The notes under the pieces: generated by a model
Seen by the model: only the letters and a program-made list of their open reading frames with translations
Told to the model about the DNA's origin: nothing
The model's database searches: none
Assembly (NCBI GenBank): GCA_019746975.1
Contig: JAIERK010000013.1
Span: 1-64,000, forward strand
Reading direction: 5' to 3'
Length of the DNA stretch: 64,000 nucleotides
Source of the DNA: Candidatus Obscuribacterales bacterium
GTDB taxonomy: Bacteria; Cyanobacteriota; Vampirovibrionia; Obscuribacterales; Obscuribacteraceae
Position numbers and translations under genes: made by a program
Shown here: piece after piece, positions 8,970-50,608 of the stretch
Layout of the letters: the number at the start of each line of letters is the position of its first letter
Numbering within the stretch: the stretch's first letter is position 1

Positions 8970-9012
8970 GATTTTTGTCCTCTAAAGCGTATTATGAAAT
9001 GTTGACAAATTT

Positions 9013-11242: not shown

Positions 11243-11452
11243 ATGCTGCTCGTCAATCTAGATCCGTCATATGTGGGCTTCGTCGCCGAGAATCAATCGA
11301 AATGGCGCCACTTATCCAAAGAAGAGTTGACCCGCTTCCTCGTGGAGATGGAGGCGGCCAAGCCGGGTCATCGCTTGCCGCAAGACTACCAGGTTCGCTT
11401 GCCCGGCAGTTATTCCGTTGCCAAACTTACAAAATTTGGTCTGCTGAGCTAA
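11243..11452 (+). CDS. Small hypothetical protein
   Basis: 69 residues, ATG with ACAGGA just upstream. It contains a short amphipathic helix (KEELTRFLVEMEAA) and a basic, proline-containing second half. I do not recognise a family. It converges with the decayed permease on the other strand, overlapping its end by four bases. It may be a genuine small gene or a chance frame. Confidence 0.4.
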   Translation: MLLVNLDPSYVGFVAENQSKWRHLSKEELTRFLVEMEAAKPGHRLPQDYQVRLPGSYSVAKLTKFGLLS

Positions 11453-11925: not shown

Positions 11926-11934
11926 GCGCTGAGC

Positions 11935-12651
11935 CTACTGCATCTCACCCGAATCCCCAATGTTGCTATCGGAAGCGGAGAGAATGTGCAGTTTGTATCC
12001 GAATCCAGGTTCTGCGACGATTGTTGTCTGGCAACCATATGAATCCAGTTTTACTCGAAGACGAGAAATAGAGACCCTGACTGCTTGATCGGTAACCGCA
12101 TTATCGGACTTCCAAATGCGGTTTATTAGTGAATCCGTGTTGAAACACTTTTCCGGGTTTCGAATGAAAAAATCGAGGAGCGCAAATTCCTTCGACGTCA
12201 ATTTGAGTTTTTGTTCTTTGTGAAAAACGGCATTCTTCGCCAGATCAAGCGTTAAAGAACCATATTCATATTCGGTCTTGCTTACCTGTACTTGTCTGCC
12301 TAACAGTGACCGAACTCGCAGTAGTAGCTCCTTCGGATGGAACGGTTTTGTCAGATAATCATCAGCGCCGGACATGAAACCCTTCTCTTTCTCTTCAATA
12401 GCCCCTTTCGCTGTCAGCAGCAGGATGGGTGTTTGCCCGTTAGCATCTCTAAATTCTTTGCAGATCTCTGGACCGCTCTTGCCTGGCATTTGCCAGTCCA
12501 TAATTACTACGTCGTAAGTAGTCGTGCGAAGAAGCATGGATGCGGCGGCTCCATCTGCAACCGTTTCCACTGTGAATCCCTGGGTAGTTAGCCAGTCCGC
12601 CACATTGCGCAGCAGTTTTTCATCATCATCGGCATAAAGAAGTTTCGGCAT
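11935..12651 (-). CDS. OmpR/PhoB-type response regulator
   Basis: 238 residues. The receiver domain (1-120) has acidic pocket residues DDD 8-10, phosphoacceptor D52 (VVIMDWQMPG), and K102 in KPF. A winged-helix DNA-binding domain (about 130-225) contains SRLRVKL and the GFGYKL hairpin. It is divergent from the histidine kinase at 12909, with 257 bases between, and the pair probably forms a two-component system. The gene's 3' end abuts a decayed ABC-2 permease. Confidence 0.94.
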   Translation of the reverse strand: MPKLLYADDDEKLLRNVADWLTTQGFTVETVADGAAASMLLRTTTYDVVIMDWQMPGKSGPEICKEFRDANGQTPILLLTAKGAIEEKEKGFMSGADDYLTKPFHPKELLLRVRSLLGRQVQVSKTEYEYGSLTLDLAKNAVFHKEQKLKLTSKEFALLDFFIRNPEKCFNTDSLINRIWKSDNAVTDQAVRVSISRLRVKLDSYGCQTTIVAEPGFGYKLHILSASDSNIGDSGEMQ

Positions 12652-12908
12652 TCAAAGGTCGTCTCCTGCGCCGAATATACCTCAAATTCCGAGTAAAGAA
12701 ACTGTGTCATCGAGAATAAGGCGATGCTTGTAGTGCCACGTGGCGACGTACCTCACGCCATTTGTGCGGAGCGGGCACCTGCTATATACGATGCCCTCGA
12801 GTGACCGTACATGGAACCAACTTTGACCAATAAAGAGAATTGGGGTTTATGATAAGTTGTGCGGGTAAAGCCATCGGCAGTTGAATCTTTTATACGACGC
12901 GAAAATCT

Positions 12909-14363: not shown

Positions 14364-14367
14364 GCCT
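14350..14367 (+). terminator. Small hairpin at the stop codon of the histidine kinase
   Basis: AGGCTCA and TGAGCCT pair across a four-base loop, and the stop codon lies in the right arm. A T-rich run is lacking, so this is a weak terminator candidate. Confidence 0.3.
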
Positions 14368-14526
14368 CTTCGGCGAGATGTTCGAATCGAATTCAGGCAC
14401 TAGTTAATTTGGCGAATTCAGAAACGTGCCACTTTTTGTGAGGCGTTTGTGAATCCGCCCCACTTATGCTTGCAGCGTTCGAAACCCACGCGACTGTTTT
14501 ATCCTGAACTAGAAGGAGTTCCTTTT

Positions 14527-16176: not shown

Positions 16177-16200
16177 CTAGCTCGAGAGTAACCTGCGTGT

Positions 16201-16247
16201 CAAAGGGAAAGAGCAGACTTGTCGGAAGACGAGTTTGCTCTCCTTTG
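16201..16247 (+). terminator. Strong hairpin with GGAA tetraloop
   Basis: A 14-bp stem (16210-16223 with 16228-16241, two G-U pairs) closes on a GGAA loop. An outer CAAAGG/CCTTTG stem adds six pairs, with a three-base bulge. It lies between the repeat protein and the TPR gene and is best read as a transcription terminator, although the following T-tract is short. Confidence 0.65.
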
Positions 16248-16290
16248 ATTGTTGACTTATGCTATTTCCAGTCGAGGACAATAGTAATAA

Positions 16291-17628
16291 ATGGATAGCC
16301 CTAACCTGCTCAAGAAGATAGTTCGTTCTATCATTTTTGTCTCAACAACAATAATTCTGCCGATTCAATGGTGCATACCTGCAGGCGCAATACCGCCGCC
16401 GGAGATGATACAGGTCAGAAGAACTGGTAATTGGCTTGGAATCCGAGCAACCGCCAATCGGCTTCTGGCGCGAGATCCCGGCAACCAGTATTGTCTCGAA
16501 TGTCTGGTTGAGGCTAGCATTCAACTAAAGCGTTACGATGAAGCAAGAGCTGTTTTGATTCGGCTGAGAAAGGACCACGCCAACCCGCAACCATATTTAT
16601 GGGCGCTTCTGGAATCCATGTTGGGCAATTACAAGGAGGCCGATAAATACGTCGAAGCGATGCTCACCTCTGGACCTCCTAGTAAAATTCAATTGCAGTT
16701 GTCCGAAAAAATTGCATACAAGGTTGACCGAGATCGCTGGATGCAACTTTGTGTGAAACACTACAAATTACATCACGCTTCATGGTATTTCTCCGGGGGC
16801 AACTCAGGAGACCACGACATCGCTCTCCGTGAAGTAATGGCTTTAGCAAAGGATCGAAAACATGGTCCGGAAAATTCGAATGAGTTCTTCATTGCACTTA
16901 TCACACCGGTTCCAAAAACAAAATTGACTCCTTCTGAGAAGCTTTTGGTGGCAAGAGCACATGTGCATCTGGGTAATGAAGAGTCTGCTCTGGAGTGGTG
17001 CGATTCAGTTGCTCTTACCAATCCACAAGAGACGCTAAGCGTAATATCTGGCCTGGCAGGTCTAAATTTCAAGTCGCACTCTAAATTCAGGAAACTGTTG
17101 GAGAAAATGGAAGCTGTTTGTAGTAATGACCACGAGTATTGGTACATTCGAAGCGTCCAATCCTGGAAAGAGGGACGTGCGGAAGACGCTTTGCAGTATT
17201 GTGAACGCAGTTTGGCGTTGAGTTCAAACGAAAAGTCCCTCTGGCTACGCTTTAGTATTGATCGCCAGGAGGCATCGGTGCGAAAGAGCACTGAGGCTCG
17301 GAGTCGGCTTTTGCCCGATTTACAGCCACTGGTGCAAAAATACCCTTCAGTCCAAAGTTACTCTCAGAGAGCTATAGTCCTTCATGAATTTGGCCGACTT
17401 GAAGAAGAGATATCGGATCTCACTCACCTGATCTCGATGCTACCTTCCGGTCCCGAAAATCTAGACAAGCGTTTGCACAAAGCAGAAGTCGAATATACTT
17501 TGGGTGACTTAAGAGCTGCTAAGAAAACGACCATATTAGTATTGCAAGTGCAGCCGGACAACGCTCGCGCCAAGGTCTTAATGGACAAGATTGGGAAAGA
17601 GATGAAACGCGCTTCTATGCAAGACTAG
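16291..17628 (+). CDS. Secreted TPR-repeat protein
   Basis: 445 residues. The N-terminus has a positively charged start, a hydrophobic core (IIFVSTTIILPIQWC) and an AGA cleavage site, a typical Sec signal. The remainder is helical, with degenerate tetratricopeptide units such as LLARDPGNQYCLECLVEASIQ, EDALQYCERSLAL and LGDLRAAKKTTILVLQVQPD near the end. It probably serves as a periplasmic protein-interaction scaffold. No enzymatic motif. It converges with the acidic protein at 17641, 12 bases apart. Confidence 0.75.
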   Translation: MDSPNLLKKIVRSIIFVSTTIILPIQWCIPAGAIPPPEMIQVRRTGNWLGIRATANRLLARDPGNQYCLECLVEASIQLKRYDEARAVLIRLRKDHANPQPYLWALLESMLGNYKEADKYVEAMLTSGPPSKIQLQLSEKIAYKVDRDRWMQLCVKHYKLHHASWYFSGGNSGDHDIALREVMALAKDRKHGPENSNEFFIALITPVPKTKLTPSEKLLVARAHVHLGNEESALEWCDSVALTNPQETLSVISGLAGLNFKSHSKFRKLLEKMEAVCSNDHEYWYIRSVQSWKEGRAEDALQYCERSLALSSNEKSLWLRFSIDRQEASVRKSTEARSRLLPDLQPLVQKYPSVQSYSQRAIVLHEFGRLEEEISDLTHLISMLPSGPENLDKRLHKAEVEYTLGDLRAAKKTTILVLQVQPDNARAKVLMDKIGKEMKRASMQD

Positions 17629-17640
17629 TGTTCTCTTTCA

Positions 17641-18123
17641 TCAGGCTGCGCAGAAGCTGGACTCGGGTGTAGACGTAGTAAACTCTTTAAACGCGATTCC
17701 GTTGACTGTCAGAGTGGTGCCGATAGTGTCGTAAAGTCCGTTCCATGCTTCCTTCGTGCAGTCCGTCGCAATTATTACTAGCATTGTTTTCCCTTCGCCG
17801 ATTGCCTCGAAATTGAATTGAATGCCATCTGGCAGGGTTACTGGAACGGCAGACAGGACCGTGTCACAGAAACGGATTGTCTCGCAGAGGCCTAGTTCTA
17901 AGACCATTTCAAGTGCCGACAGGTGGGGTAGGTTCTGGGTTTCTTCTTGAAGTGCACTCTGGTGCTTAATGAGCACATCGTTGTCGATCATGCTCATTAG
18001 AGATGATTCGTCTGTCTCCGGGGCGAAGCAAATTTCTTCGCCGGACTGGGGTCCTGTGTCCTCAGTTGAGTATTGGGATTCAAGATCCAACTGTTGCCCG
18101 CGATCAGTAGTATCCTGCTTCAT
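17641..18123 (-). CDS. Hypothetical acidic protein
   Basis: 160 residues, ATG 18123 with GGAGG eight bases upstream. The first 70 residues are acidic and probably disordered. The second half is a small alpha/beta domain (TLPDGIQFNFEAIGEGKTMLVIIATDC is its core, residues split by conserved Gly). I do not recognise a family. It is preceded, on the same strand, by the amidohydrolase, 91 bases away. Confidence 0.6.
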   Translation of the reverse strand: MKQDTTDRGQQLDLESQYSTEDTGPQSGEEICFAPETDESSLMSMIDNDVLIKHQSALQEETQNLPHLSALEMVLELGLCETIRFCDTVLSAVPVTLPDGIQFNFEAIGEGKTMLVIIATDCTKEAWNGLYDTIGTTLTVNGIAFKEFTTSTPESSFCAA

Positions 18124-18214
18124 CTGCCATCCTCCGCAACGCTGTTTGACTATAAAAGTTTTTGCGTGACGGAGTTCGGACTGAAGTGTGACAAATTCAT
18201 GACGTCATGCCGAG

Positions 18215-19222
18215 TCAGACCGCGTGCTCTCGAGGTGGAGCGCTTTTAGCATCTTCATTTGTCCATGCCAAACCCAATAGCTGTTCTGCGTTTTTGAATG
18301 CTACCTGTTCGAACTCTCTTTCGGTCAGTGCTCGGCGAACCTCTGCGAGTGCCTGCCACTGTTGAAAAAGCGGAAAGTCCGATCCGAAGAGGATTCGCTC
18401 ACTGCCCACGTTATCGACCGCTCTTCTTATTATGCGAGCTGGTTGCCACGACGTTTCAAGATATACGTTCGGGTACTTTTTCGCGATGCCTATTGCCTTT
18501 CGCCAGGATTCCCAGCCCATGTGCATGAGGATAAATTTGCACTTTGGAAAATCGCGGATGAGTGGAGCAATCACGGAGAGCTCGCTGCACGCCTCCTGAT
18601 CTGTTATTCGTTCGATTGGAATATCGCCAGTGTGGATAGCGACAGGGAGACCGAAATCGCTGGCTAATGCGACGAATTCCTTTGTATCTTCGTATAGGTC
18701 GTCTGAATGATAGCCCCCCACCATTGGATGAATTTTGATACCGCTTATTGCTTTAGACTGTACGAATGGAAGAAGATAACCAACCGGATCCGGCTCTGCA
18801 TGAGCAACGGAGCCAAACACAAAAAATCGTTCTCGAAATTCGGCGGTTTGATCGATAATTTCCTGAGTGGTGGTCAGTGGCTCGAGCGAGTGGATTACCG
18901 CTCTCTTGATGCCGAGTTTGTCCATACTGTGGATTAACCGATCGAAGCCGTGTCTCTTAAACAGACGCAGTGCTTCCATGAGAAACAATTCTCCGCAGTG
19001 CGAGTAGATCAGTCTGCTTATCTTGTCGTTGAAATGCATAGCTACATGTCGACAAATCTGGTCATGTATCCCTTCTGTCAGGTCTGCGATTGGCTCGACT
19101 ATCGGGACCATGTGCTTGAAGAATTGTGATTGTCGAGTATGGGGAAAGACCTTTTCGATGCCGGCTAGCGACATCAAATGCGTGTGGAAATCGATAACAT
19201 CGAGTTGCGCTGGGTGGGCCAT
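18215..19222 (-). CDS. Metal-dependent amidohydrolase (amidohydrolase-2 / ACMSD-like family)
   Basis: 335 residues with a TIM-barrel hydrolase or decarboxylase pattern. The N-terminal metal motif is DFHTHL, followed by IKIHPMVGG, the metal-site strand VAIHTGD, FILMHMG, and the C-terminal acidic residue in LFGSDFP. Members act on aromatic ring-cleavage products (alpha-amino-beta-carboxymuconate semialdehyde or resorcylate decarboxylases) or hydrolyse amides. The nearby FAD hydroxylase on the same strand makes a role in catabolism of an aromatic compound plausible but unproven. GGAAG precedes ATG 19222. Confidence 0.85.
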   Translation of the reverse strand: MAHPAQLDVIDFHTHLMSLAGIEKVFPHTRQSQFFKHMVPIVEPIADLTEGIHDQICRHVAMHFNDKISRLIYSHCGELFLMEALRLFKRHGFDRLIHSMDKLGIKRAVIHSLEPLTTTQEIIDQTAEFRERFFVFGSVAHAEPDPVGYLLPFVQSKAISGIKIHPMVGGYHSDDLYEDTKEFVALASDFGLPVAIHTGDIPIERITDQEACSELSVIAPLIRDFPKCKFILMHMGWESWRKAIGIAKKYPNVYLETSWQPARIIRRAVDNVGSERILFGSDFPLFQQWQALAEVRRALTEREFEQVAFKNAEQLLGLAWTNEDAKSAPPREHAV

Positions 19223-19601
19223 AGTCTTCTTCCTTTTGCTCGGCTTGCATTGGGCGCTGAGTACTCACATGATCTATAGCTCAATTTGTCGGTCACGTGG
19301 CTCATGTTCTTAGCTTTCAGCACATCACCTTCGCTAACATGAGCAGATTCGTTGTCAAAACCGCTTTATAGTCAGGGAAATAACTTAACGAGACTTGAGC
19401 ATTTGAAGCAAGGCTCTTACCGTGTTCGTCTTGCGCCAGGATTTGAATCTGATTGCGCAGAGATGACTTCGACTTCTTGCGTCAAAGAACCACGCAAATG
19501 TGGGAGCACTCAAACATGCGGAGCGGCGACCATCGATTGTTTAACGCCTATTGCTTGCGGAATTCGGACAACTCGTTCCACTTGGCGCGGTGCCCATGGT
19601 T

Positions 19602-19721
19602 TTACCGTCGGATGCGGGGAGCCTTCCTTTGAAATTCATCCGATGTCAGAGTCGAGATATGCTTCAGCAGTGAATCGTGAGAAATGTGCTTGCTTGCTGC
19701 CGATGAAACTGTATTGGTCAT
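19602..19721 (-). pseudogene. Possible M28-type aminopeptidase remnant
   Basis: The minus strand has a good start (AAGGA then ATG at 19721) opening a 39-codon frame reading SHDSLLKHISTLTSDEFQ then RKAPRIR before a stop. This closely resembles the N-terminus of M28 zinc aminopeptidases (I-S-x3-L-x2-HI-x2-L-x-SDEFEGRAPGT). A one-base shift gives GRLPASDGKT, which continues the family pattern. Beyond it only broken frames are visible. The rest of the 19223-19769 gap (547 bases) contains no gene I can support; a 175-codon plus-strand frame crossing it overlaps the hydroxylase and looks non-coding. Confidence 0.4.
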
Positions 19722-19769
19722 GGTTTAATTTCCTTACAGTAGATGGCGAAGAAGTAAAACCTGCGCGGG

Positions 19770-21584
19770 TCAAATACGAGCCAGTTGAACTTTGTCGAAA
19801 ATGCGTTCCAAATACTTCGTCAACAGTTTGTGAGCTACTGGCTGACTGCGGAAGCCGACGTAGCCGTCAGGCCTTATGAGATACAGGCAGTTGGCTCCGG
19901 CACCATACTTGTGGTGGCAAGACATCTCCCAATCCTCGACGATCATCACGTTGGGTTGCATCTCCGGCGCATGAGTTTTTAAAACTTTCTCGAAGTGAGG
20001 AATGCATTTGTTTCTGCTGTCGTCTGAGTCCACAATCGCCACCACGTTAACGAGGTCTGAATAGGATTTGGTGAGAGCCCGCGCGATGCCTCCAAATATG
20101 TCGATCTCTTCATTGCTGGTTTCATCTCCTGAAAACAACAGAAGAGTATGTTTGGTGCCCTGGAAGAGTTCATACAGTCTCGTAGTACCCTCTAACAGTG
20201 ATGGCGGAAAGTATGCGTCACCGCGTTTGAAGGCACGCAGCGGACCCTGCGTCGCGGCGACAACGAAGCCGTCCGGCGCACGGTCGCCTGCTTGTGGGCC
20301 GTTCTTGAACGCGAAACAATCCTCCAGATGCGGCATGTCGTTCTTACGGGCGAGGGCATCGATCATAGAAGAAAGGTGCTCTTCCACGATTGGGCTTTCT
20401 CTATAGTTGAGCGACAGTTCTGCGATGCTGCTCTGCATCCTTTTCTGAATAACTTCATGTGCTGTGAGAACCGGCGCGAGCGTGTTCCTCAAATGCTTGG
20501 CCACCGGATTTTTCAGAGTATTGACCTTCATCATGAAATCGGTCATCTTTAGCACACCGAGGGCGATACCAAGCCTTTCGACACCATACGAGTCTAGAAG
20601 CGCATCATCCGCCTTTCCTTTGGTTACGAGCGCTAGTTTCCAGGCCAGGTTGTAACTGTCCTGAATACCGGTGTTCATCCCCTGACCGCCTGCTGGGCTA
20701 TGAATGTGGGCCGCGTCACCGGCGAGAAAACAGTTGCCTTTTCGGTATTGCGATACGTGGCGTCGATGCAGATAGATACCACAAGACCAGAACTGCTCAC
20801 TCAAAACCAAGCTGTAAGGGCTTCTCCTTTCGACTTCTGCTTGCATCTCTTCAAGCGAGGGCTCCTTAACCGACTTGAGCGCTTCCGCTTGATCCTGTTC
20901 TTCACCCATGCTGCATGCTATGCGATAGCGACCGCCGCCGTAAGGGAAGAGTGCCAAAATTCCATGGTCGGAATTGAATACGTAAATCTCGTCGGGATTG
21001 ATTGCGCCTTCGATGTGCACGTCGTTGAGATACATCAGATCCGGATAATTCTCTCCGGAGAACTCCAGGTTGAGCGCTTTTCTTACTGTGCTATGGGCAC
21101 CGTCCGTGCCGACCGTGTAACGTGCATTGATAATCTCTTCCTGTCCGTCGGCGCTTCTGAGGCGGTTTTCTACGGAGTCTTTGCCTTGAGTCAATCCAAC
21201 CAGTTGTGTCGAGCGCTCGACCTGAGCGCCGAGCTCGGCTAGTCTTTCCATGAGGATGCGTTCTGTATCACTTTGCGGCAAGGTCAACGCGAAGTCGTAC
21301 GGGCCATCCAGCTCGTCGAAGGTCATGTGTGCTATTTGCTTGTTGTCGGCGAAGATGTTGATGCCCCGCATCTTTAGCCCGAAGGTCAAGAATCGATCGA
21401 CGATTCCCATGTCTTCAAATACTTCCAACGAACGGGAATGAACTGCCAGTGCTTTGGACTTCTCTGAGGCGTGCGCTTCTTTATCGATGATGCGAAAGCT
21501 CACACCATATCTGGCCAACTCGCAAGCCAGGGTTAGTCCAGTCGGACCGGCACCCACTATCAGGACTTCGACATCATTTGACAT
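19770..21584 (-). CDS. FAD-dependent aromatic-ring monooxygenase (PheA/TfdB family)
   Basis: 604 residues, full length for class A flavin hydroxylases with the extra C-terminal thioredoxin-like domain. The FAD Rossmann motif VLIVGAGPTGLTLACELARYG is at the start. The FAD/NADPH motif DGAHSTVRKAL and the ribityl-binding GDAAHIHSPAGGQGMN follow. The C-terminal domain (from about 430) ends with IRPDGYVGFRSQ, typical of the family. It would hydroxylate a phenolic substrate with NAD(P)H and O2, so this organism, or a close ancestor, uses oxygen. AAGGAG precedes ATG 21584. It lies 56 bases after ispF, same strand. Confidence 0.93.
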   Translation of the reverse strand: MSNDVEVLIVGAGPTGLTLACELARYGVSFRIIDKEAHASEKSKALAVHSRSLEVFEDMGIVDRFLTFGLKMRGINIFADNKQIAHMTFDELDGPYDFALTLPQSDTERILMERLAELGAQVERSTQLVGLTQGKDSVENRLRSADGQEEIINARYTVGTDGAHSTVRKALNLEFSGENYPDLMYLNDVHIEGAINPDEIYVFNSDHGILALFPYGGGRYRIACSMGEEQDQAEALKSVKEPSLEEMQAEVERRSPYSLVLSEQFWSCGIYLHRRHVSQYRKGNCFLAGDAAHIHSPAGGQGMNTGIQDSYNLAWKLALVTKGKADDALLDSYGVERLGIALGVLKMTDFMMKVNTLKNPVAKHLRNTLAPVLTAHEVIQKRMQSSIAELSLNYRESPIVEEHLSSMIDALARKNDMPHLEDCFAFKNGPQAGDRAPDGFVVAATQGPLRAFKRGDAYFPPSLLEGTTRLYELFQGTKHTLLLFSGDETSNEEIDIFGGIARALTKSYSDLVNVVAIVDSDDSRNKCIPHFEKVLKTHAPEMQPNVMIVEDWEMSCHHKYGAGANCLYLIRPDGYVGFRSQPVAHKLLTKYLERIFDKVQLARI

Positions 21585-38103: not shown

Positions 38104-40356
38104 TCAGCTGTCCGGCGGGAATGCTTCCTGCTCAGTGTAATGCGCGAACTCCATTTCGTCTCCATTCAAATCTAAATGGAAGTGGCTAGCGCTCGAAGAG
38201 TCGCATTGCAATAGCAACTTCGACAATGGGACCTGGATCAGTTGGCGAATCAGTCGTCGCAATGGTCTGGCACCATATGCGGGGCTATAGGCTCTCTTCG
38301 CCAAGTGAGCCTGCGCCGCGGCTGATAGAGACACCATTGCGCCTTGAGCCTGCAGGCGTTCATTCAGTTGCGAAATCTGGAGCTCGACAATTCTGCGCAA
38401 GTCCGATTCGGTAAGCGGTGAGAATACCACTATGTCGTCAATCCGATTCAGGAGCTCAGGTCTGAAGCGGCTGAGCAAAAGTTGACGCAGGCGCTCGGGA
38501 AGAGCGTCCACACCGCCAGATTGAGGCAGACTCGAAGTTGAGACGGATGTTTTTCCGTCGTCTCTAGAGCAGGTTGCCTCGGCAGGTGCAATTGAGCGGT
38601 TGTCATCCGATTGTTGCTCTGCGGCCTTATCCAGGACAAAGTCGGCTCCGATATTAGAGGTCATGATGATTATCGTATTCTTGAAGTCGACAACCCTTCC
38701 TCGTGCATCCGTCAGGTGTCCTTCGTCCAGAATTTGAAGCAAAATGTTGCCGACGTCTCGATGTGCCTTTTCCAGCTCGTCAAAAAGTATGCACGAATAA
38801 GGTTTTCTTCGCACAGATTCCGTCAATTGACCACCTTCGTCGTAGCCTATATAGCCGGGTGCTGCGCCGATCAGTCGAGAGACGGTATATCGGTCGAAGT
38901 ACTCGGACATATCGAGGCGAATGAGCGCCTGGGAGTCACCAAATACGGTATCGGCAAGAACTTTGGCAACTTCGGTTTTTCCCACACCAGTCGGACCGAG
39001 AAATAGGAAGCTGGCTAATGGCCTGGCAGGGTCGTTGATTCCTGAGCGCGCTATTCGAATAGCATCGGCGACTCGTCGGGTAGCCACAGTTTGTCCAATT
39101 ACATGTAATCCCAGAGACTGTTCCATGTTGATGAGCGCATTGGCATCCGTCTCGCCGACCTTGGAAAGGGGTATCCCGGTCCATTCGGAAAGTTGCGCCG
39201 CGACGTCTTCTGTTGTTATCTCGGCAGGAACCGAAAATTGAAAATCTTCGGAGCTGTCGAGATTGTCTTGCAATTCCTTGACGAGTGGCGCTTGCTGAGC
39301 CTCCAGATGGCTTACGGTATGAAAGTCCAGCCGGCGCTTGGCTCTCTCCAGCTCCCCGTCAAGCGCCTTGAGCTGTTGCTGCAGTATGCTTCGCCTCTGA
39401 ATCGCGGCAAGAAATTGGCGCCACCGAGTGTTCATAATCTCCGACTGTTGCCTGATCTCGAGTAGGTTTTTTTCCACGATCTTCAGGCGCTTTCTCGCGC
39501 TTGCATCGTCATCTCCACGCAACGATGCTTGTTCCAGTTCAAGTCTGGCAGTCCCTTCGATGACCTCCCGCAACTCGGAAGGCATTGAGTCTATTGCAGT
39601 CCTTCTTCTCGAAGCTGTCTCATCAATTAGATCAATTGCCTTGTCCGGCAATCTCCTGTCAGGAATGTACCTGGCAGTCAGGTTTGCCGCAGCAACCAGT
39701 GCGGAGTCTCGCACCTTCACCCCATGATGGGCTTCGAATCCTGGCCGTAGTCCTCGTAATATAGCCACGGTATCGTCCACGCCGGGCTCTTTAATTTCGA
39801 CCTTTTGAAACCGCCTGGCTAAAGCCGGATCGCGTTCTATGTATTTTGTATACTCACTAATGGTGGTGGCACCGATACATTGCACAGTTCCTCTGGCGAG
39901 ATGCGGCTTTAAGGTATTGCTAACATCCAGGGCGCTTTCGCCTGCGGCGCCTGCCCCAGACATCAGGTGCATTTCATCGATGAATAGCAAGATCTCGCCG
40001 GCCGCTTCAGTTACTTCGCGAATCAGTGTACTGAGCTTTTCTTCGAGTTGCCCTCGCATCGAGGTCCCGGCTATGAGATTGGCGAGTTCCAGCGAGAGTA
40101 TTCGTTTGCCCTTCAACCTTTCGGGCACCTCGCCATTAACTATTCGTTGAGCAAGACCTTCGACAATCGCGGTTTTCCCCACGCCGGCCTCTCCAATCAA
40201 GGCGGGGTTATTCTTCGTCCTTCTGGTTAAAATATTGATGAGTCGCGCAATCTCCTCATCCCGACCTATCACCGGCTCCAGCTTCCCTGCTGATGCCAGT
40301 TGCGTCAGATCCGTCGCGGTGGTCGATATTACTCCGACTGTCGATGTCTCTGACAT
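38104..40356 (-). CDS. ClpA/ClpB-type AAA+ ATPase lacking the N-terminal substrate domain
   Basis: About 750 residues from ATG 40356 (GAGGAG at 40361-40366). Two AAA+ modules. NBD1 has [18 protein letters not shown] and [12 protein letters not shown] short coiled-coil middle domain follows. NBD2 has [15 protein letters not shown] and [11 protein letters not shown], plus the sensor/arginine block AYGARPLRR. Unlike ClpB (about 860 residues) there is no N-terminal Clp-N repeat domain, and the middle domain is shortened. A Ser/Asp-rich insert of about 45 residues follows [17 protein letters not shown] see no ClpP-docking IGF/LGF loop, so it is more likely an unfoldase or disaggregase. It follows the LRR gene by 26 bases. 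Confidence 0.9.
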
Positions 40357-40382
40357 TACACTCCTCAACTTCCTGAGAAGTT

Positions 40383-41264
40383 CTAAGGACCGAATACATT
40401 GCAGGCTGGTATCGCGGAGCGCAATCGCTGCAACGCAATATCCGTGACCTTGTTGTCTCGAATCTCCAGGTATTCGAGATTCTTCAGTGGTTCAAGATTT
40501 GTCAGACCTTTGTCTGAGACTTTTGTCCCGCTGATGTAGAGAGTGCGTAGTTTTGCTAGACGCGAAAGCGCAGTCAAACCAGCGTCACCAACGGCGGTAT
40601 CATTGACGCAAAGAGTCTGCAAATTAGCCATGGTCGACACGAACTCCAGCCCCTGATCTGTAACTCTTGTATTTGACAGGTCCAGGTGAATCAGATTGTC
40701 GAGATTGGCCAGCTCCTCGAGTCCATTGTCCGTTATTTCGGACGGCAAGAGCAGGGTGCTTAGCTGCTTTGCATCGCGTAAGTGTACCAGACCACCATCT
40801 GTGATCTCGGTTTTTTTCAATATCAAATGTTGTAGAGATGGCAGCGATGCCAAATATCTCAGGCTCTTGTTGCTGATAGATGTATGAAGGAACCAGACAG
40901 TCGCGAGGTTCTTCATTGGTGCGAGTTTTGCGACATGGTTGTCCTCGAAGGGCACAAAGTCCAATCTCAATTCGACTGTATCTTCGAGTTGAGTGATCTC
41001 TTTGAGGACGTTGTCGGAGAATCTCACTGTCGAGAGATCGAAGGACTGGAGCTTCTTTAGAATCGGCTGAAACTCCGCCAGCATTGATTCCGAGATGTGG
41101 CCGCTGATCTGCAAACCCAATAACTTATCTTCCGCTAAAGCAGGAGCGACTTCGCCGACTGCCTCGCCAACCCACTTTCGTTGATGAGGGAATGACTTGC
41201 CGGCCAAGTACAGTCCACCTAGTGATATGCGATCTGGGAAAGTGAATTTTGTTGCGGATGTCAT
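40383..41264 (-). CDS. Leucine-rich-repeat protein
   Basis: 293 residues. From about 95 onward it has roughly eight LRR units of 23-24 residues with the pattern L-x-x-L-x-L-x-x-[TN]-x-[VI]-[ST]-D-x-G-[LV] (for example [20 protein letters not shown] and [20 protein letters not shown]). The N-terminal 90 residues are not LRR. It has no signal peptide or membrane span and is probably cytoplasmic. It is the first gene of a two-gene unit with the Clp ATPase. The same D-x-G-L type of repeat forms the C-terminus of the kinase at 48011. Confidence 0.85.
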
Positions 41265-41618
41265 TTCTGTTGATTCCTAATCGAGTGCTTGTTGACTACT
41301 CTCAAGAAGCAGCTAGGATGTTGAGTATATCATTGCTGCGCCTACCGCTTGTCAGTAACGGCAGATACAATTCTGGATAGTTAATAATCGATACTTTGGA
41401 AATGGTTTGGTGATGGACGTAAATAGCTCATTGCTGCGCCCTTCTATCGCCTGAGAGCAGTAGTTGCTGCCGAGAAACGGACTCTGGTAGCCAGCTGCCA
41501 TAGCCATTTTTGCAAAGATTGTTCGCGGAAACATTTTGCCGAAGTGGCTCAGCAGACCGGCATGAAACTCTTCGAGTAAATGAACACATAGTTCGTGCTT
41601 ACCCCAGCGACAGGCTCC
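41265..41618. other. Gap between the LRR gene and the TPR gene
   Basis: 354 bases. It should hold the promoter of the LRR-Clp unit. A short repeat, CATTGCTGCGCC, occurs at 41331-41342 and 41430-41441. On the minus strand a frame from about 41612 to 41352 encodes LLEEFHAGLLSHFGKMFPRT and AMAAGYQSPFLGSNY, which looks more protein-like than random, but it lacks a good start and is not recognised. It could be a gene fragment. Confidence 0.35.
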
Positions 41619-43079
41619 CTATCCGTCAGAGTTGGCTTGGGTTGGTCTATCGGTGTGGCGACCTTGCTTTTGTTCTGATTTTCTCTTTTCCGCTTTAGCT
41701 TTTGTAAGAAATTCCGCCGCCTCGTCATCTCTTTGAAGCGCCGCAAGGCAGCGAGAGTAGCCGTTAAAGACCTCGTACTTGTAAAGCTCGCCAATCTTGT
41801 TTTTTTCTACTTCAGCGACCGCTCTCTTGTAGATCTCTTCCGCTTCAGTCGGCTTATTCTGATTGACTAAGCAGTCTGCAAGTTTTAGATTGAGCCAGTC
41901 GAAATCGCTGCCGATGGGAGCCTCTTTGTATCGTGCTGTGCTTTGCGCTATCGATTCACGGTAATACTGCTCGGCTTTTTTGAATTGCTTTTTCTGATAG
42001 TAGAAATCTGCCAGAGGCGTAGCCGCATGAATTATGCGCCAGCCTCGCGTGGTGGGAGTCACTTGCTTGTTGTGGTCAGCTCTTGTGGCCAACTTGTACG
42101 CTTGCTTGTATGTGTCTTCCGCCTCTGCAATCTTTCCTGATTTCTCGAGTATCCTGGCAATGTCAGCGAGGCACTCGATATATTCACCGCTCTGATCACC
42201 GCTTTGTGAGACTATCATTTGCGCGGTCTTCTTATACAGTCGCAACGCCTCCGGTAGATTGCCTGCACTTTCACGTTGGTAGCCAAGGCAGTGCATGGAC
42301 ATACTTCGAACTTCGTCCCCGTTTTCTTCCGTGCTCGCCTCGGAAATGGACTTCTCTTCGGATAGCAGGAGCTTCTTCGCTTCTTCTGTTCTATCTTGTT
42401 GCGTAAGAAATTTGCTATACGCCGTCAACGCGTGAGTGCGCTTCAATGTGTCTGACGTATCAATTGCTTTTTTGTACAGTTCTTCTGCCTCTACGATTTT
42501 CCCCTGCTTTTTCTTGATAGTTGCGATCTCGCAGAGTATTGACTGCTTGTCCTGTGATGGCAGTGGGAACCGAAGCCCCATGATGTCGCTTACCAGGAGC
42601 GGCAAAGTCTTCATCTCTATCGAGTCTTTAGAGCCAAGCAGTTGCAAGGCTCGATTGAAGTAAGCTTCTGCCTGTGAGGTGTCCTCGTGCTGATTGGCGC
42701 ACGCTGCAAGTATGCATAGAACACTTACTTGACCCCCAACATCCTTGTTTTGTACAAATTCTTCTAGATTCTTCTGTGCACTTTCTTCTATTTTTGGCCA
42801 ATCGTTCGCCGCACAGTATTGTGCTGTTAACAGGTTGCGTACGTACGGCTTGTGATACTCGTCGGCTGAGTCGACGAGTCGCTGGAGACCTGGTAGAGTC
42901 TCGCTGGTCGTCGGTCCAGCGAGTGTCTCGGTGAATTTCATAAATTCAGATTCCCATTGCAAGCGCTGGACCAGCCCGCTTGATGCCACTACCGATAGTA
43001 CGATGACATCAAGAAGTACGAGGACAATGCAGATCACTGCTGCCTTCCTCATTTTTTCCGATTTCACTAGAACCTGCAT
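41619..43079 (-). CDS. Membrane-anchored TPR protein
   Basis: 486 residues. An N-terminal TM helix (AAVICIVLVLLDVIVLSVVASSG) is followed by about 8-9 tetratricopeptide units, e.g. IVEAEELYKKAIDTSDTLKR, GKIAEAEDTYKQAYKL and KPTEAEEIYKRAVAEV, then a Lys/Gln-rich tail. It begins 21 bases after the upstream kinase gene and so is the third cistron of a kinase-kinase-TPR unit. It may be a scaffold for the kinases or their substrates (inference). Confidence 0.85.
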   Translation of the reverse strand: MQVLVKSEKMRKAAVICIVLVLLDVIVLSVVASSGLVQRLQWESEFMKFTETLAGPTTSETLPGLQRLVDSADEYHKPYVRNLLTAQYCAANDWPKIEESAQKNLEEFVQNKDVGGQVSVLCILAACANQHEDTSQAEAYFNRALQLLGSKDSIEMKTLPLLVSDIMGLRFPLPSQDKQSILCEIATIKKKQGKIVEAEELYKKAIDTSDTLKRTHALTAYSKFLTQQDRTEEAKKLLLSEEKSISEASTEENGDEVRSMSMHCLGYQRESAGNLPEALRLYKKTAQMIVSQSGDQSGEYIECLADIARILEKSGKIAEAEDTYKQAYKLATRADHNKQVTPTTRGWRIIHAATPLADFYYQKKQFKKAEQYYRESIAQSTARYKEAPIGSDFDWLNLKLADCLVNQNKPTEAEEIYKRAVAEVEKNKIGELYKYEVFNGYSRCLAALQRDDEAAEFLTKAKAEKRKSEQKQGRHTDRPTQANSDG

Positions 43080-43100
43080 GCTTGGCAGAACCTCGGTGTT

Positions 43101-44753
43101 TTACTCTGGCGGTAACCGTTGCTCTTGCACCAGGGTAAAGAGATCACTCTTGAGCGATTGGCAATCCTGATATCGCGTTGATAAACCGAGCGAGGTGCAT
43201 TTTGCTACGATCTCGTCAAGGTTGGTGCTGATCTCTGGACGCAGTCGGCGCGGACGCGCCTGGGAGATGGGCTCGGGATCTTTACCCGTGAGAAGATAAT
43301 CTAGCGTTGCCCCAAGGGCATATACATCACTTTGTGGAATGGCCTTCCCTCGGAATTGTTCTGGTGGGATGTAGGAGTGCTTCCCAACGACGGTTTTTGT
43401 CGTCTGCGCCTCGAGTTGTTGGGCAACGTTGAAGTCAATGAGTTTGAGCTTCTCGTCTTTGTCCATAATCAAATTGTCTGGCGTAAAGTCACGATGAACT
43501 ACGGAAGGCTGACGGCGGTGCAAGTATGAGAGGATATCGCACATCTGGATTGCAAGTTGTACGACCTTGTGTTCCGGCATGATACCAGAAATGGTGACCA
43601 CATCCTTCAAGGTAGTTCCTTCCGCATGTTCTAGCACCAGATAAGCGCGCTGATCTTCGACAAAGAAATCTAACAATCTGACTATATTCGGATGGCGCAG
43701 CTTTTTCCAGAGCTTGGCCTCTCTTTGAATGTTGTCGAGAACGCGTTTGCGAATATTGACTCCGGCTTGAGCAGGAAGGACAAATTCCTTGAGCACCACT
43801 TCTGGAAGCTCGCTGTTTTCTCCGCTTTCGATTGCGATTGGCAAATCGGACAAGTCGACCAGAGTCTCACCCTTCTTTCCATCCAGGCTCGCGCCGTCCG
43901 GCAGCTCGCGATGCATTGAGGCGAGGTATACCAGAGCCTGTCCTCCGGCACCTATGTGACTGATCACCTTGTATCCACCGCCGGCCAGTTCAGTCCCTGC
44001 TTCCAGTGCTGAATCTCTCTGACGGCCGGACCCATCTTGCAGTTTGTCCAACCAGAGATCGGTGTACGAGTCCTGGCGGATGTACATGTTCAGATCGTCG
44101 GCCACCTTAGGTTCGATTCTGTATGATGGCAAAAACTTTTTTAAGGCTAGTTGTAATCGCTTCCTATCGTCACTGGAGGCGATTGCGTCGACTTCAAAGC
44201 GAATCAAGGCTCGGTCACTGCTCAGCCATCCCCATGTCAGAATAGGAGCGAGTACAAAGTAAGCCAGTCGCTTTTTGAGCGGGATACCACGGGCGATGGC
44301 ATTAAATTCTATCGTTATCTCCTCGGTTTTGTTGACGGTGGTGTTGACGGTCGTGACGTGTGAGATTCTGTCCCAGCTCAGAAGCGGCGTGCTGAGTTGG
44401 TACAACAGGTGCAGCCAGTGAAATTGCAGTCCTTTGTCGCTGAGTTCAATATGCGTCGGCGCGATCAATTTCCAGGGGCCAATGCCGGTTATAGTAGACA
44501 ACGTCATATAGATTGCGGAAGCGATGAGCGAGTATCCCACCAGGGACTGTTGAAGAAATAGCATTCCTGCGCCTATTATCGCAGTCGCCAAAATAGTCAG
44601 CGATAGTATCAGCTTTGAGCCAGGTCGCTTGAGTCTTTGTCTGTTCAGTCGCTCCGGCTTGTATCTAATCCAGAATGCCGTATAGTCCTCGGCGCTCTGG
44701 CTGGTTTTTGAGAAGAAGTATCTCTTGGCTAACGATTGTTTGGAGTATGACAT
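43101..44753 (-). CDS. Membrane Ser/Thr protein kinase with DFN in place of DFG
   Basis: 550 residues. N-terminus with two TM helices, then a beta-rich domain of about 130 residues resembling a bacterial PH-like fold, a linker (SYTDLWLDKLQD), and a C-terminal kinase domain (about 265-545). Glycine loop IGAGGQALVYLA, catalytic Lys in VVLKEF, alphaC Glu in IQREAKLW, HRDFTPDN at 420-427, and the Mg motif as D440-F441-N442. The Asp that binds metal is retained; the Gly is Asn. The activation segment GKHSYIPPEQFRG is intact. The closest relative is the adjacent gene. Three bases separate them, so they are cotranscribed. Confidence 0.9.
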   Translation of the reverse strand: MSYSKQSLAKRYFFSKTSQSAEDYTAFWIRYKPERLNRQRLKRPGSKLILSLTILATAIIGAGMLFLQQSLVGYSLIASAIYMTLSTITGIGPWKLIAPTHIELSDKGLQFHWLHLLYQLSTPLLSWDRISHVTTVNTTVNKTEEITIEFNAIARGIPLKKRLAYFVLAPILTWGWLSSDRALIRFEVDAIASSDDRKRLQLALKKFLPSYRIEPKVADDLNMYIRQDSYTDLWLDKLQDGSGRQRDSALEAGTELAGGGYKVISHIGAGGQALVYLASMHRELPDGASLDGKKGETLVDLSDLPIAIESGENSELPEVVLKEFVLPAQAGVNIRKRVLDNIQREAKLWKKLRHPNIVRLLDFFVEDQRAYLVLEHAEGTTLKDVVTISGIMPEHKVVQLAIQMCDILSYLHRRQPSVVHRDFTPDNLIMDKDEKLKLIDFNVAQQLEAQTTKTVVGKHSYIPPEQFRGKAIPQSDVYALGATLDYLLTGKDPEPISQARPRRLRPEISTNLDEIVAKCTSLGLSTRYQDCQSLKSDLFTLVQEQRLPPE

Positions 44754-44756
44754 CGA

Positions 44757-46355
44757 TTAACTTTCGCCATCGCGAGCGCGAATATCGATAACGCCACCAG
44801 GACCCTGTTCCAAAAGTTGTTCTGCTGCGGCATAAAAAGTGGTGGCATCGGCGATGCGCTCTTGTAATTCTTGAGCCGTTGCGCGTGCCACCAGCTCGTC
44901 GACATCGGGTGAGATATCTGAATTGAGGCTGCGTGGGTGCGATTCTGCGAGAGCCTCCGGATCTTTTCCCGTCAGCATATAATGAAGCGTGCCGCCGAGC
45001 GAGTAGATGTCGCTCTGTGTCTGAGCCCGACCGCGAAACTGCTCTGGTGAGATGTACGCCTGTTTGCCGACCAGCGTTCCTGTAGCGGTGCCTAAGAATT
45101 CGTTGGCTGCGCCGAAGTCGATGATAACGATCTCGTCATCCTCTCTCAAGACGATGTTGTCCGGTGTGATATCTCGATGGATTACCGGCGGATTTTGACA
45201 GTGAAGATACTCCAGAATGTCGGCGATTTTCATGGAGTATGTAAGTACATCGCTTTCGTTGAATGGTCCGTTCTGTCTGACAAGCTGTCTGACTGTATGA
45301 CCTGGGACGAACTCCAGAACAAGATAGTCGCGATTGTCCTCCACGAAGTAGTCCAATACGCGAGCAATCTTCGGATGCGAAAGACGCTGTAGAATGGTGG
45401 CTTCTCTAAGGAATAGCTCTTTTGCTTTTTCTCTAGTGCTCTCAGCGAGCGTCAGTGGAAGTGTCGCCTCTTTCAGCACACGAAGCTCTTTCTCGGGTGT
45501 TTCTGCCAAGTATATGGCGGATAGACCGCCAGCGGCAATCTGCATCAAAACGCGCAAGCGCCCTGCCTTCAAGAGCTTTCCTTTCTTCAATGGCACAAAG
45601 TTGGTCGCTGAAAAATGGTCTTGCATCTCCTGCTCCCAGAGTTCCGTAAAACTTTGTGGGATTTCTTTTTCGGGATTGGCTTGCTTTCCGATGAAACGGC
45701 TGTCATCGCTATTCTCGCCCAGGCGAAATTGCGGGGAGCGGCTGAACTCTAAACACCAGGATTCGAGCGCAACGAATAAAAGCTCAGCTCCCTTTTTTGA
45801 CATGCGGTTGAGGTCGATCGTGGCATGACCACCAGATTTGAAATAGATGAACAGTTTTTTGCTATCGTCTGCCTTCTCCAGGTCGAACTCATATGCACCT
45901 TTTGCGTCGTTGAGCAGCATCGAACCAAGAAGTATGTTGGCGATGTCGGACCAGGGGCGCATGGGGCGAAACAGCATGTCGGGTTTGAACATGTACGGAA
46001 AGGTAATACCTTCGTCGCAGACTTTGATTGAGATGCGCTTAGCAATATCCCGCTCGAGAGTGATGAATGCGCAGATAACAGCAGACGCAATCACTGTTAG
46101 TGGAATTGTAATCGGCAACACATATGCAGGCATGTTGATCAGCTGACTTGCTACGATGCAGGCGATGGATGTTATCCCCATGACAAGTGCCGTGCCGGCG
46201 ACGAGATATCCGGCTCTACGGCTGAAAGGAAGGTACGGGATAATGTATGTTTTCGTGCGCAGCTCCCGCTTCTTCTCGGCTGAGCTGTTCGAGGGCTCAC
46301 GCTGTGCAGCGGCTTCCATGGTCTCCTTATTCGTCTTGATATGCGACCCGGACAT
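44757..46355 (-). CDS. Membrane Ser/Thr protein kinase with PH-like N-terminal domain
   Basis: 532 residues, paralogue of the previous kinase. Two N-terminal TM helices (GYLVAGTALVMGITSIACIV and the next), a PH-like beta domain ending with DLNRMSKKGAELLFVALESW, the shared linker SFTELWEQEMQD, then the kinase domain. Glycine loop IAAGGLSAIYLAE, Lys in RVLKEA, alphaC Glu in LREATIL, HRDITPDN at 393-400, canonical DFG at 413-415, and activation segment GKQAYISPEQFRG. The kinase lies C-terminal to the membrane segment, opposite to the common PknB order. First gene of the kinase-kinase-TPR unit. Confidence 0.92.
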   Translation of the reverse strand: MSGSHIKTNKETMEAAAQREPSNSSAEKKRELRTKTYIIPYLPFSRRAGYLVAGTALVMGITSIACIVASQLINMPAYVLPITIPLTVIASAVICAFITLERDIAKRISIKVCDEGITFPYMFKPDMLFRPMRPWSDIANILLGSMLLNDAKGAYEFDLEKADDSKKLFIYFKSGGHATIDLNRMSKKGAELLFVALESWCLEFSRSPQFRLGENSDDSRFIGKQANPEKEIPQSFTELWEQEMQDHFSATNFVPLKKGKLLKAGRLRVLMQIAAGGLSAIYLAETPEKELRVLKEATLPLTLAESTREKAKELFLREATILQRLSHPKIARVLDYFVEDNRDYLVLEFVPGHTVRQLVRQNGPFNESDVLTYSMKIADILEYLHCQNPPVIHRDITPDNIVLREDDEIVIIDFGAANEFLGTATGTLVGKQAYISPEQFRGRAQTQSDIYSLGGTLHYMLTGKDPEALAESHPRSLNSDISPDVDELVARATAQELQERIADATTFYAAAEQLLEQGPGGVIDIRARDGES

Positions 46356-48010: not shown

Positions 48011-50608
48011 GTGAGTGCGGAATACACTGTGGAAACCTGTCGAAAGTGTGGAATGAGTCGAAGCAACTCCGGACCGGGCAGTATCACTCAGTGGATTGCC
48101 ACGTGTCATTGCAGTGAGCTTGTCATTCCGGATGACAGTATCGGAAAAGATCCGATACTACTTTGTACACTATGCAACAAACGCATCTCAATGGGACGAG
48201 TCGGAAGCCTGACGCAGTGGGTTTTTCGTAGCGATCTCTGCCGTTGCGAAAATCCTTCGCCGGTCCAGGCAACCGATGCCGAGGTGCAGAGCGCCGTCGG
48301 CACGATGATGGATGACTTGACGCTCAGTCAGGAGTTCGGTCAGGCCGTAGAAGGTCTGCTCATCGATGAAGATGTCTTTCCAATCGATCGATATAAGCCT
48401 TTGCGCGAAATTGGCAGAGGCGTCTCCGGCATCGTGTATATGTCGGTCGATCGGATGCTGAGAAAACATGTTGCAATCAAGTGTTTGCAAACGCTTAGTG
48501 CTAAGCAATTAGTGGACTTTCAGAAAGAGGCTCAGGCCACGAGTAAGCTCGATCATCCAAATATTATCAAGGTCTTTGACTTCGGTGCGACCGAAAGCGG
48601 TGCACCATATATGGTTATGGAGTATGCCGAGGGTAACAGCCTCGATCACTACATCGAGACCAATGGGGTCTTATCCGAGCCGATGGCTTTGTCTGTGTTG
48701 ATGCAGCTCGCCAGCGCGCTTGGGCATGCGCATGCCAGAGGTATCTTTCACCGCGACATAAAAGGTTCAAACCTATTGATCGTGAAAGGAAATGCTGAAG
48801 ACGATACCACTCCGGCACCACTGGAAGTGCGGGTCATAGACCTGGGCATCGCGACGCTCAAGGAGGCATTGTTCGAAACGAACAAAGGAAATACTATTGC
48901 CGGAACACCTGCATATATGTCGCCGGACCAATTCTATGGAAAGCCTTTCGACGCCAGATCTGAGGTGTATTCGGTCGGTTGTTTGTTTTTCGAGATGCTG
49001 ACCGGTCGCCCTCCTTACGTCGCGCAAGGAGCGATCGAGGTTGTCAACCTCCATGTAAATCAAGAGATTCCCCGTCTGTCCGAGGCTAACCCTGATTCCA
49101 ATTTCAGTCCGGTTGCTGACGAGATTGTTCAGCGTTGTCTTGCCAAAGAGCCCGACGAAAGATTTCAAACCATGGCAGATCTGCAGGCCTTTATTGAAGA
49201 TCCAGACTTAGCGGTTCTGGAAGCGCCGCTGTCCGACAGTCAAGCCGCGCTAACACCTGTTGCCTCGGGGCGGAGAGATCGCGTTATGCCATTGATTGCT
49301 TTTCTTGTAGCAACTGTTTTCATCATATTCGGCGGTATAGCCTACTCAATTTGGCAAAACCTTGATGCTGCAACTACTCCGACTATTGCTCTCCGTTCTG
49401 CAGGCACACCGACTTTTTCTGAGAATGAGGATGCCTTCGAGCGAGTGCTAAAGGGCGCATCACTTGGTGAAAGTCAGGCATTTAAAATTGTAAGTACTGC
49501 TCCGAACCAAGTCGTTGTGGAAGGTGCCGACACAACGTCTTCGTTTGCCAAACTCAGGTCGATCGTAGGTCTCAATGATGTTTTCCTGCGCAACAGCACC
49601 ATTAACGGGTCCATGATATCGGTTCTCAGAGACTGCAAGCTTGCAACGCTGACTATTGAACTTTGTCGGTTTAGTAATAGCGCTCTCGTCGGGTTGTCTG
49701 AACTGACGACGCTTAACCGTCTGACCATTCGCAAGACTCCTGCATTTGCCGTTGACGGCTTGAAATATCTCAAAGGGCTTTCATTGACTCGCTTGCTGAT
49801 TGAATCGATCGACCTGAGTGAAGCCTCTCTTAAATTGCTTGGCCGAATGCATACTCTCTCCGACTTAACCATTCAAAACTGCACAACATTCGACGAGCAT
49901 GGTCTGGTTTATCTTCAGAAATTACATCTTAAATCCTTGCAACTTATGGATACACCTTTTGCTGCTGACGGGTTGAGATCCATTCAGAAAATGGACTCTC
50001 TTCAAACGCTGGCTTTGACGAGCACTGATTTCGTTGAACGTCCGGGCTACAGTGAAGAAATTAAGCACACTCTGGGAGCGCAAAGGGACAACCAGACTCC
50101 GTACGATCCAGAGGCTTTCGCTGGGATTGCTTCGCTTCGGTCTCTTAGTACGCTGGCTATTGATTGCGATCGGATGGAACTTAGTCAATTTGTCGCACTG
50201 AAGAATTTTGCCGATTTGAAATCTCTATCTTTATCTATTAGGCGTCCGATGAGCGATGACAACTGGGAAGCTCTGCGTGACCTCTCGAATTTGCGCTCCC
50301 TCAAGATAATCGGGGCGATAAACGGAGATAATTTATCCAAAATTGTAAAAATGAATCGGCTTCAGACTCTCATCCTCTGTAATTCTGAGTTGACCGATAG
50401 CGATGTGAGCGAACTAGCTGATTCGAATCTCGAAACGTTGTCGATTTTGGGAGACAACACACTTTCGGACAGCGGTTTAAACTCGCTTAGTAAAATGCCG
50501 ATGTTGGCAAAACTGAGACTTCCGGAGGTCTCGTTCATTACTGCTTACGGTTTGGAAAGTTTTGTCAAACTCAAGCCTAACTGCCAGTTAGTCAAACGCG
50601 ACCTATGA
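48011..50608 (+). CDS. Ser/Thr kinase with tandem Cys motifs, membrane span and LRR domain
   Basis: 865 residues from GTG 48011 (GGGAAG upstream). N-terminus: two units of about 45 residues, each with a CxxC pair, a GS(I/L)TQW block and a later CxC pair, likely two zinc sites. Kinase domain about 130-400: IGRGVSGIVYM, Lys in VAIKCLQ, Glu in FQKEAQAT, HRDIKGSN, DLG instead of DFG in VIDLGIATL, activation segment GTPAYMSPDQF. TM helix LIAFLVATVFIIFGGIAYSIW near 440. The extracytoplasmic C-terminus (about 420 residues) is a beta/LRR domain with about ten D-x-G-L-type units. It could sense an external ligand and phosphorylate cytoplasmic targets. No near neighbour identifies the substrate. Confidence 0.92.
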   Translation: MSAEYTVETCRKCGMSRSNSGPGSITQWIATCHCSELVIPDDSIGKDPILLCTLCNKRISMGRVGSLTQWVFRSDLCRCENPSPVQATDAEVQSAVGTMMDDLTLSQEFGQAVEGLLIDEDVFPIDRYKPLREIGRGVSGIVYMSVDRMLRKHVAIKCLQTLSAKQLVDFQKEAQATSKLDHPNIIKVFDFGATESGAPYMVMEYAEGNSLDHYIETNGVLSEPMALSVLMQLASALGHAHARGIFHRDIKGSNLLIVKGNAEDDTTPAPLEVRVIDLGIATLKEALFETNKGNTIAGTPAYMSPDQFYGKPFDARSEVYSVGCLFFEMLTGRPPYVAQGAIEVVNLHVNQEIPRLSEANPDSNFSPVADEIVQRCLAKEPDERFQTMADLQAFIEDPDLAVLEAPLSDSQAALTPVASGRRDRVMPLIAFLVATVFIIFGGIAYSIWQNLDAATTPTIALRSAGTPTFSENEDAFERVLKGASLGESQAFKIVSTAPNQVVVEGADTTSSFAKLRSIVGLNDVFLRNSTINGSMISVLRDCKLATLTIELCRFSNSALVGLSELTTLNRLTIRKTPAFAVDGLKYLKGLSLTRLLIESIDLSEASLKLLGRMHTLSDLTIQNCTTFDEHGLVYLQKLHLKSLQLMDTPFAADGLRSIQKMDSLQTLALTSTDFVERPGYSEEIKHTLGAQRDNQTPYDPEAFAGIASLRSLSTLAIDCDRMELSQFVALKNFADLKSLSLSIRRPMSDDNWEALRDLSNLRSLKIIGAINGDNLSKIVKMNRLQTLILCNSELTDSDVSELADSNLETLSILGDNTLSDSGLNSLSKMPMLAKLRLPEVSFITAYGLESFVKLKPNCQLVKRDL

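Follow-up and report, generated by a model that had tools for sequence, protein, structure and literature searches.

Two adjacent kinase genes in a 64,000-nucleotide stretch from a Candidatus Obscuribacterales bacterium (contig JAIERK010000013.1, positions 1 to 64,000; henceforth the window) represent a real, repeated and apparently undescribed arrangement, in which a Hanks-type kinase with a DFG motif (type A; K1 in the window) is paired with a relative that has lost the glycine of this motif (type B; K2 in the window). The home genome is a 7.5 Mb draft in 263 contigs. We propose, as a reading that we consider reasonably probable, that K1 and K2 constitute an obligate, asymmetric and membrane-anchored kinase receptor pair that has multiplied as a unit within this bacterial order, with A as the catalytic member and B as an ATP-binding regulator. 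Co-encoding, co-duplication, asymmetric motifs and a shared linker are evident at the level of the genes; by analogy with better-known kinases we further infer that A and B would form a heteromer, in which A would be the main enzyme and B its ATP-binding activator or first substrate. A limited body of papers yielded nothing relevant on such pairs or motifs and, to our knowledge, surveys of bacterial kinases treat every Hanks-type kinase as a single unit.

The two genes, separated by a 3-base gap, and their diagnostic segments are as follows:

44757..46355, minus strand: K1, A-type kinase of 532 amino acids, with hairpin, small beta domain, T-x-L-W linker helix and C-terminal kinase domain with DFG
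46035..46220, minus strand: predicted two-helix membrane hairpin of K1, residues 46-107 (AlphaFold helices 46-73 and 79-107; the hydrophobic sequence suggests the membrane role)
45615..45650, minus strand: conserved linker helix of K1, FTELWEQEMQDH, residues 236-247
45156..45179, minus strand: catalytic loop of K1, HRDITPDN, with Thr for the usual catalytic-loop Lys
45111..45119, minus strand: DFG motif of K1
45063..45068, minus strand: P+1 loop of K1, Gly-Lys for Gly-Thr
43101..44753, minus strand: K2, B-type kinase of 550 amino acids, with the architecture of K1, DFN replacing DFG, and a beta2-beta3 insert
44466..44621, minus strand: predicted two-helix membrane hairpin of K2, residues 45-96
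44031..44066, minus strand: conserved linker of K2, YTDLWLDKLQDG, residues 230-241
43473..43496, minus strand: catalytic loop of K2, HRDFTPDN, with Lys replaced by Thr
43428..43436, minus strand: DFN motif of K2, the DFG glycine being lost
43380..43385, minus strand: P+1 loop of K2, Gly-Lys

Both proteins score above the cut-off of the Hanks-type kinase model PF00069 (130.7 and 122 bits against 31.7) and possess the beta3 Lys, the HRD Asp and the DFx Asp; neither displays the conventional Ser/Thr active site (HRDxK with Ser or Thr in the P+1 loop), both having HRDxT with GK. Their best sequence and fold matches are the kinase domains of the PknB/StkP/Stk1 Ser/Thr kinases: their kinase domains match solved structures of the StkP/PknB type, and a fold search with K1 returned PknB-like kinases. 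They differ from this group in lacking PASTA repeats, in carrying the kinase domain C-terminal to a membrane hairpin, in the exchange of the catalytic-loop Lys and the P+1 Thr, and in their occurrence as A-B pairs; the PASTA kinase model NF033483 gave 158-162 bits, over the kinase part only, against a curated cut-off of 450. Structure models (15 sequences for each kinase; mean predicted local distance difference test score, pLDDT, 75; predicted template modelling score, pTM, 0.5) show for both a two-helix hairpin, consistent with the description of two membrane kinases in an earlier note on this DNA, then a small beta domain with a terminal helix, the T-x-L-W helix within a poorly resolved stretch, and the kinase domain. 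Searches with the N-terminal region of K1, beta domain included, gave no Pfam domain and no PDB match by sequence; its modelled strand order suggests, as an impression, a bacterial PH-like fold.

Among other low-scoring kinases of the home genome the two-gene arrangement was met again. When the DNA was scanned for the unusual activation segment with the pattern GK[HQ]..Y..PEQ, 23 matches were obtained, nearly all in adjacent pairs, and none in the reversed control. Profiles for A (alignment A4) and B (alignment A3), whose scores were matched afterwards, were searched over five genomes and recovered 14 pairs in the home genome, 10 in G002, 8 in G029, 9 in G025 and a single one in G007; all 42 consist of one A and one B. 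K1 and K2 share the defining features of these pairs, being adjacent on the same strand with the T-x-L-W linker and GK in the P+1 loop. Random dealing of the labels would produce 42 mixed pairs out of 42 with a chance of about 3e-12 (hand calculation), a constancy that reflects retention and not independent assembly, since all of them derive from a single ancestral pair. The two genes of most pairs overlap or adjoin each other in an operon-like manner. In G029, the output of one B-B pair by our script arose because three kinases stand in a row (B..B-A), which we read as a B-A pair and an extra B; the latter is the only contig-internal, linker-bearing member in the five genomes that lacks an A of its own, and another B (C223) is truncated by the end of its contig. 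Pairs are also present in the sister family f2 (G036-G038), and conventional linker-less relatives only were found in G004, G008 and G024. Among 292 sampled genomes of the phylum, none outside the home genome came near pair-like scores (at best 244 bits, with the linker uncovered), and the best non-home matches that were read are conventional DFG kinases. Outside Cyanobacteriota the pair search covered plasmids and viral contigs; the viral contigs held only four kinases, all conventional, and two motif scans and one protein scan came back empty.

Some members of the wider set depart from the usual form. Positions 1-20000 of home-genome contig C197 (L152) carry two A-B pairs in a row, with a 496-residue gene without Pfam match between them, and the A member of the second pair is degenerate (beta3 Lys replaced by Arg, and DFA). 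Two B kinases, of 854 and 725 amino acids (L149 8940-11504 and L121 7400-9577), have N-terminal parts much longer than the others, which may hold repeated hairpin-plus-beta-domain units.

In a phylogenetic tree, A and B each form one clade (support 98/93 and 86/82), and their joint clade lies apart from the conventional kinases of the home genome. For 13 pairs the distances between A kinases run parallel to those between the corresponding B kinases (Mantel r 0.77, reached by one of 20,000 permutations), which argues that the pair was duplicated as a unit. We then counted active-site residues in 103 distinct sequences (46 A and 57 B). The A kinases as a type have the complete set of kinase motifs, with DFG in 43 of the 46, and the DFG glycine is absent from 56 of the 57 B kinases, where it is replaced by Asn (35), Asp (6), Thr (4), Ser (4), Lys (3) or others. 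Nearly all B kinases nonetheless keep the beta3 Lys, the alphaC Glu, the HRD Asp, the DFx Asp and the metal-binding Asn, with HGD, HCD or HND variants of the HRD motif in nine of 57. Based on the retention of the Lys and of both Asp residues, B is no pseudokinase by the usual definition, and K2 itself has lost the DFG glycine only.

A further peculiarity is common to both types: in all 103 sequences the catalytic-loop Lys is replaced by Thr, Ser or Ala and the P+1-loop Thr by Lys or Arg, positions that we take to be Lys168 and Thr201 of PKA, respectively. In an overlapping scan of 148 sequences, all 36 conventional kinases keep HRDxK with GT or GS. As the two positions lie close together in solved kinases, a relocation of the Lys across the active site is possible, comparable to that of the beta3 Lys in the WNK kinases. 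The idea that this exchange is unique to the order was dropped, as it is also found in plasmid kinases of the alphaproteobacteria Leisingera, Sinorhizobium and Mesorhizobium (L289, L290, L292), which have HRDLSPDN and GK. Unlike B, these keep DFG, and the fetched stretches showed no A-B pairing; the Mesorhizobium kinase has a PP2C gene ahead of it. Judged by sequence, the exchange thus belongs to a wider class of kinases and is not the novelty of the pairs.

Downstream of the pair in the window lie three further genes, which the earlier note had joined with it in one signalling and proteostasis island:

41619..43079, minus strand: tetratricopeptide repeat (TPR) protein of 486 amino acids with a hydrophobic N-terminus, 21 bases from K2; accessory, only in the home genome
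40383..41264, minus strand: leucine-rich repeat (LRR) protein of 293 amino acids, 354 bases from the TPR gene, with the invariant N-terminal motif F-P..G-LY..FPH..W-G-A
38104..40368, minus strand: Clp protein of 754 amino acids, a divergent second ClpB paralogue without N-domain and with an M-domain stretch

The list of open reading frames confirms the strand and positions given there for all five genes, and Pfam and NCBIfam uphold the kinase, TPR, LRR and double-AAA assignments. The gap between the LRR and Clp genes is 14 bases counted from the TTG start of the latter and 26 from the next ATG. Promoter and terminator scans gave site numbers no higher than in shuffled sequence, and an Rfam search gave no match. 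The best NCBIfam match of the Clp protein is ClpB (TIGR03346), at 904 bits against a full-length cut-off of 1232; it starts at model position 154, in agreement with the missing N-domain that had been claimed. The M-domain stretch of 130 residues (129-135 in other ClpBs) and the lack of an IGF-like, ClpP-binding motif in the D2 loop are those of a ClpB, and this Ser/Thr-rich loop is long, with 60 residues, most of the other ClpBs measured having 24-41. The protein is distinct from the canonical ClpB that the home genome also encodes (C219), and it groups with its orthologues from G001, G009 and G003 in a fast-evolving clade of their own (support 100). The canonical ClpB branches beside a cyanobacterial ClpB; this placement, together with the occurrence of photosystem II proteins in 20 of 59 sampled genomes of the phylum but in none of those sampled from the class of the home genome, the home genome included, is in keeping with a class of Cyanobacteriota that lacks photosynthesis (Vampirovibrionia/Melainabacteria). 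E. coli and M. tuberculosis normally produce N-terminally truncated ClpB isoforms (PMC6168691), which, like full-length ClpB, have in common with the paralogue the two AAA modules, the M-domain stretch and the absence of the ClpP loop motif; the paralogue differs in being separate and fast-evolving, in the absence of the N-domain from the gene itself and in its D2-loop insert.

We posit that A and B would associate through their N-terminal parts or the linker, and that a signal sensed at the membrane-proximal part would bring the kinase domains into register. B would bind ATP in a locked DFG-in state and act mainly as an allosteric activator and/or first substrate of A, which would phosphorylate B and a local target. 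Candidates for local partners or outputs at the window locus are the LRR protein and, in those genomes that have it, the ClpB paralogue. Linkage favors this weakly, the flanking region being syntenic in its own right; the TPR protein would be accessory. The third DFG residue is likewise replaced in ILK, which has DVK and is probably locked DFG-in by loss of the Gly, and in RNase L, which has Asp at this position (PMC4718504). In pairs of the HER2-HER3 type, in which HER3 activates its kinase partners (PMC4718504), a full kinase is similarly joined to a partner with an altered active site, the counterpart here being B as a predicted ATP-binding regulator. The A-B pairs differ in being bacterial and gene-paired, in that their interaction is a predicted one, and in that B, by virtue of its Lys, HRD Asp and DFx Asp, falls outside the strict definition of a pseudokinase.

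This last property raises the alternative that A and B are two active kinases engaged in a cascade or in cross-phosphorylation and not an enzyme and its regulator. The near-universal retention in B of the beta3 Lys, alphaC Glu, HRD Asp, DFx Asp and metal-binding Asn speaks for it, whereas the nearly invariable loss of the DFG glycine and the altered HRD motifs point to relaxed or changed catalysis, and we regard it as rather unlikely. Several observations nevertheless count against the proposed receptor pair: with all three classical catalytic residues B may be an active kinase; three A kinases lack DFG and one B kinase has it; G010 encodes one A-like kinase with no partner within the fetched flanks; and the constant composition of the pairs is one of retention from a single ancestor, as noted above. 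Moreover, the pair model is drawn from sequence and predicted structure, and the topology and N-terminal fold come from models of pLDDT 75 and pTM 0.5 for regions lacking Pfam or PDB matches.

With respect to the neighboring genes, the earlier note suggested that the kinases phosphorylate a scaffold-bound target, with the LRR protein serving as a ClpB adaptor in place of the N-domain. A syntenic LRR orthologue with the invariant N-terminal motif occurs in 17 relatives between the mreBCD-pbp2 block and metG-coaBC. It is preceded by kinases on its own strand at 8 of the 18 loci, window included (home genome, G001, G002, G009, G003, G032, G015 and G034, the last with K2 alone at a contig end); they are absent from the other 10, where the LRR gene can directly follow metG (G007, G016). 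The ClpB paralogue adjoins the LRR gene in the window, G001 and G003, lies 4.5 kb off on the same contig in G009 and occurs in no other of 60 genomes, that is, at four of the eight LRR loci with kinases and at none of the ten without. The kinase-kinase-LRR order, this restriction of the paralogue to kinase-bearing loci, the short LRR-Clp gaps (64 bases in G001), the missing N-domain in three of four lineages and the long loop insert all favor such an island. Yet the TPR gene, without a match at E<=1e-25 in 39 relatives, is confined to one genome and drops out as a part of the system, and the LRR gene stands without kinases in 10 genomes and without the ClpB paralogue in 14. In G003, the ClpB orthologue next to this LRR protein carries an N-terminal extension, so that absence of the N-domain is not general in the paralogue clade and a stand-in for it is not required; moreover, the truncated isoforms of E. 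coli and M. tuberculosis are formed without an adaptor (PMC6168691). Thus kinase-kinase-LRR extends to eight genomes, the ClpB paralogue to four and the TPR gene to one. The earlier note took a lack of conserved order in relatives as refutation, which applies to the full set but not to kinase-kinase-LRR; we reject the five-gene island as a unit on this distribution and consider the adaptor scheme improbable. The alternative that the LRR and Clp genes are unrelated to the pair, kept beside it by descent between the two housekeeping blocks, appears to us evenly poised: these flanks are syntenic at nearly all loci, kinase-free ones included, but the shared strand, the short gaps (96 base pairs between K2 and LRR in G001) and the absence of the ClpB paralogue elsewhere in the 60 genomes argue against it. 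It concerns the LRR and Clp genes, not the pair, and is compatible with the asymmetric receptor pair that we prefer.

The neighboring scaffold and chaperone genes are local additions to the kinase pair and not fixed parts. At 13 other pair loci no LRR or Clp protein was found among the neighbor genes checked, and the basic role of the pair is thus unlikely to depend on either. A fixed extra partner gene was likewise rejected, as the 10 neighbor genes looked at share no family (TPR at two loci, HEAT at one). The home genome has at least 150 Pkinase matches and 48 matches to the LRR protein, and because kinases, TPR and LRR proteins are so common in it, a run of them is not improbable by itself; the weight rests on the conserved arrangement and not on the meeting of these gene types.

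More tentatively, it is possible that the A-B pairs make up a large family of bacterial receptors built from two kinase subunits, in which control of the DFG-type kinase by its DFN-type partner is obligate, and that they have multiplied to up to about 14 separate, insulated membrane sensors in one genome; if so, their logic would be comparable to that of animal kinase-pseudokinase receptor pairs. A pair that is nearly always co-encoded and has been multiplied as one points to two-subunit bacterial kinases with many natural replicates, whose sequences could reveal the rules by which partners are chosen and kept insulated, as has been possible for two-component systems. The active-site Lys/Thr exchange would in turn provide a clear test of the flexibility of kinase chemistry.

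We also noted other kinases in and around these genomes. In other families of the phylum (L159, L163, L164, L169) the gene after a zinc-ribbon kinase encodes a kinase-like protein without HRD or DFG (HLDLxPR and LTGF instead) that runs into an apparent PP2C phosphatase domain, another arrangement of a kinase with a degenerate partner. The home genome also has, some 20 kb from each other, two conventional kinases without the linker (C240:22896-23651 and C240:45726-46502; L245 and L244), which recur in most family genomes examined, including genomes without A-B pairs, and which, among kinases without the Lys/Thr exchange, seem closest to the pairs. Within the window, positions 48011-50608 encode a kinase of the conventional HRDxK/GT type fused to a C-terminal LRR region, and in G001, G002 and G009 another kinase of 762-856 amino acids, located directly upstream of K1, shares 33-35% identity with it in the best-matching segment.

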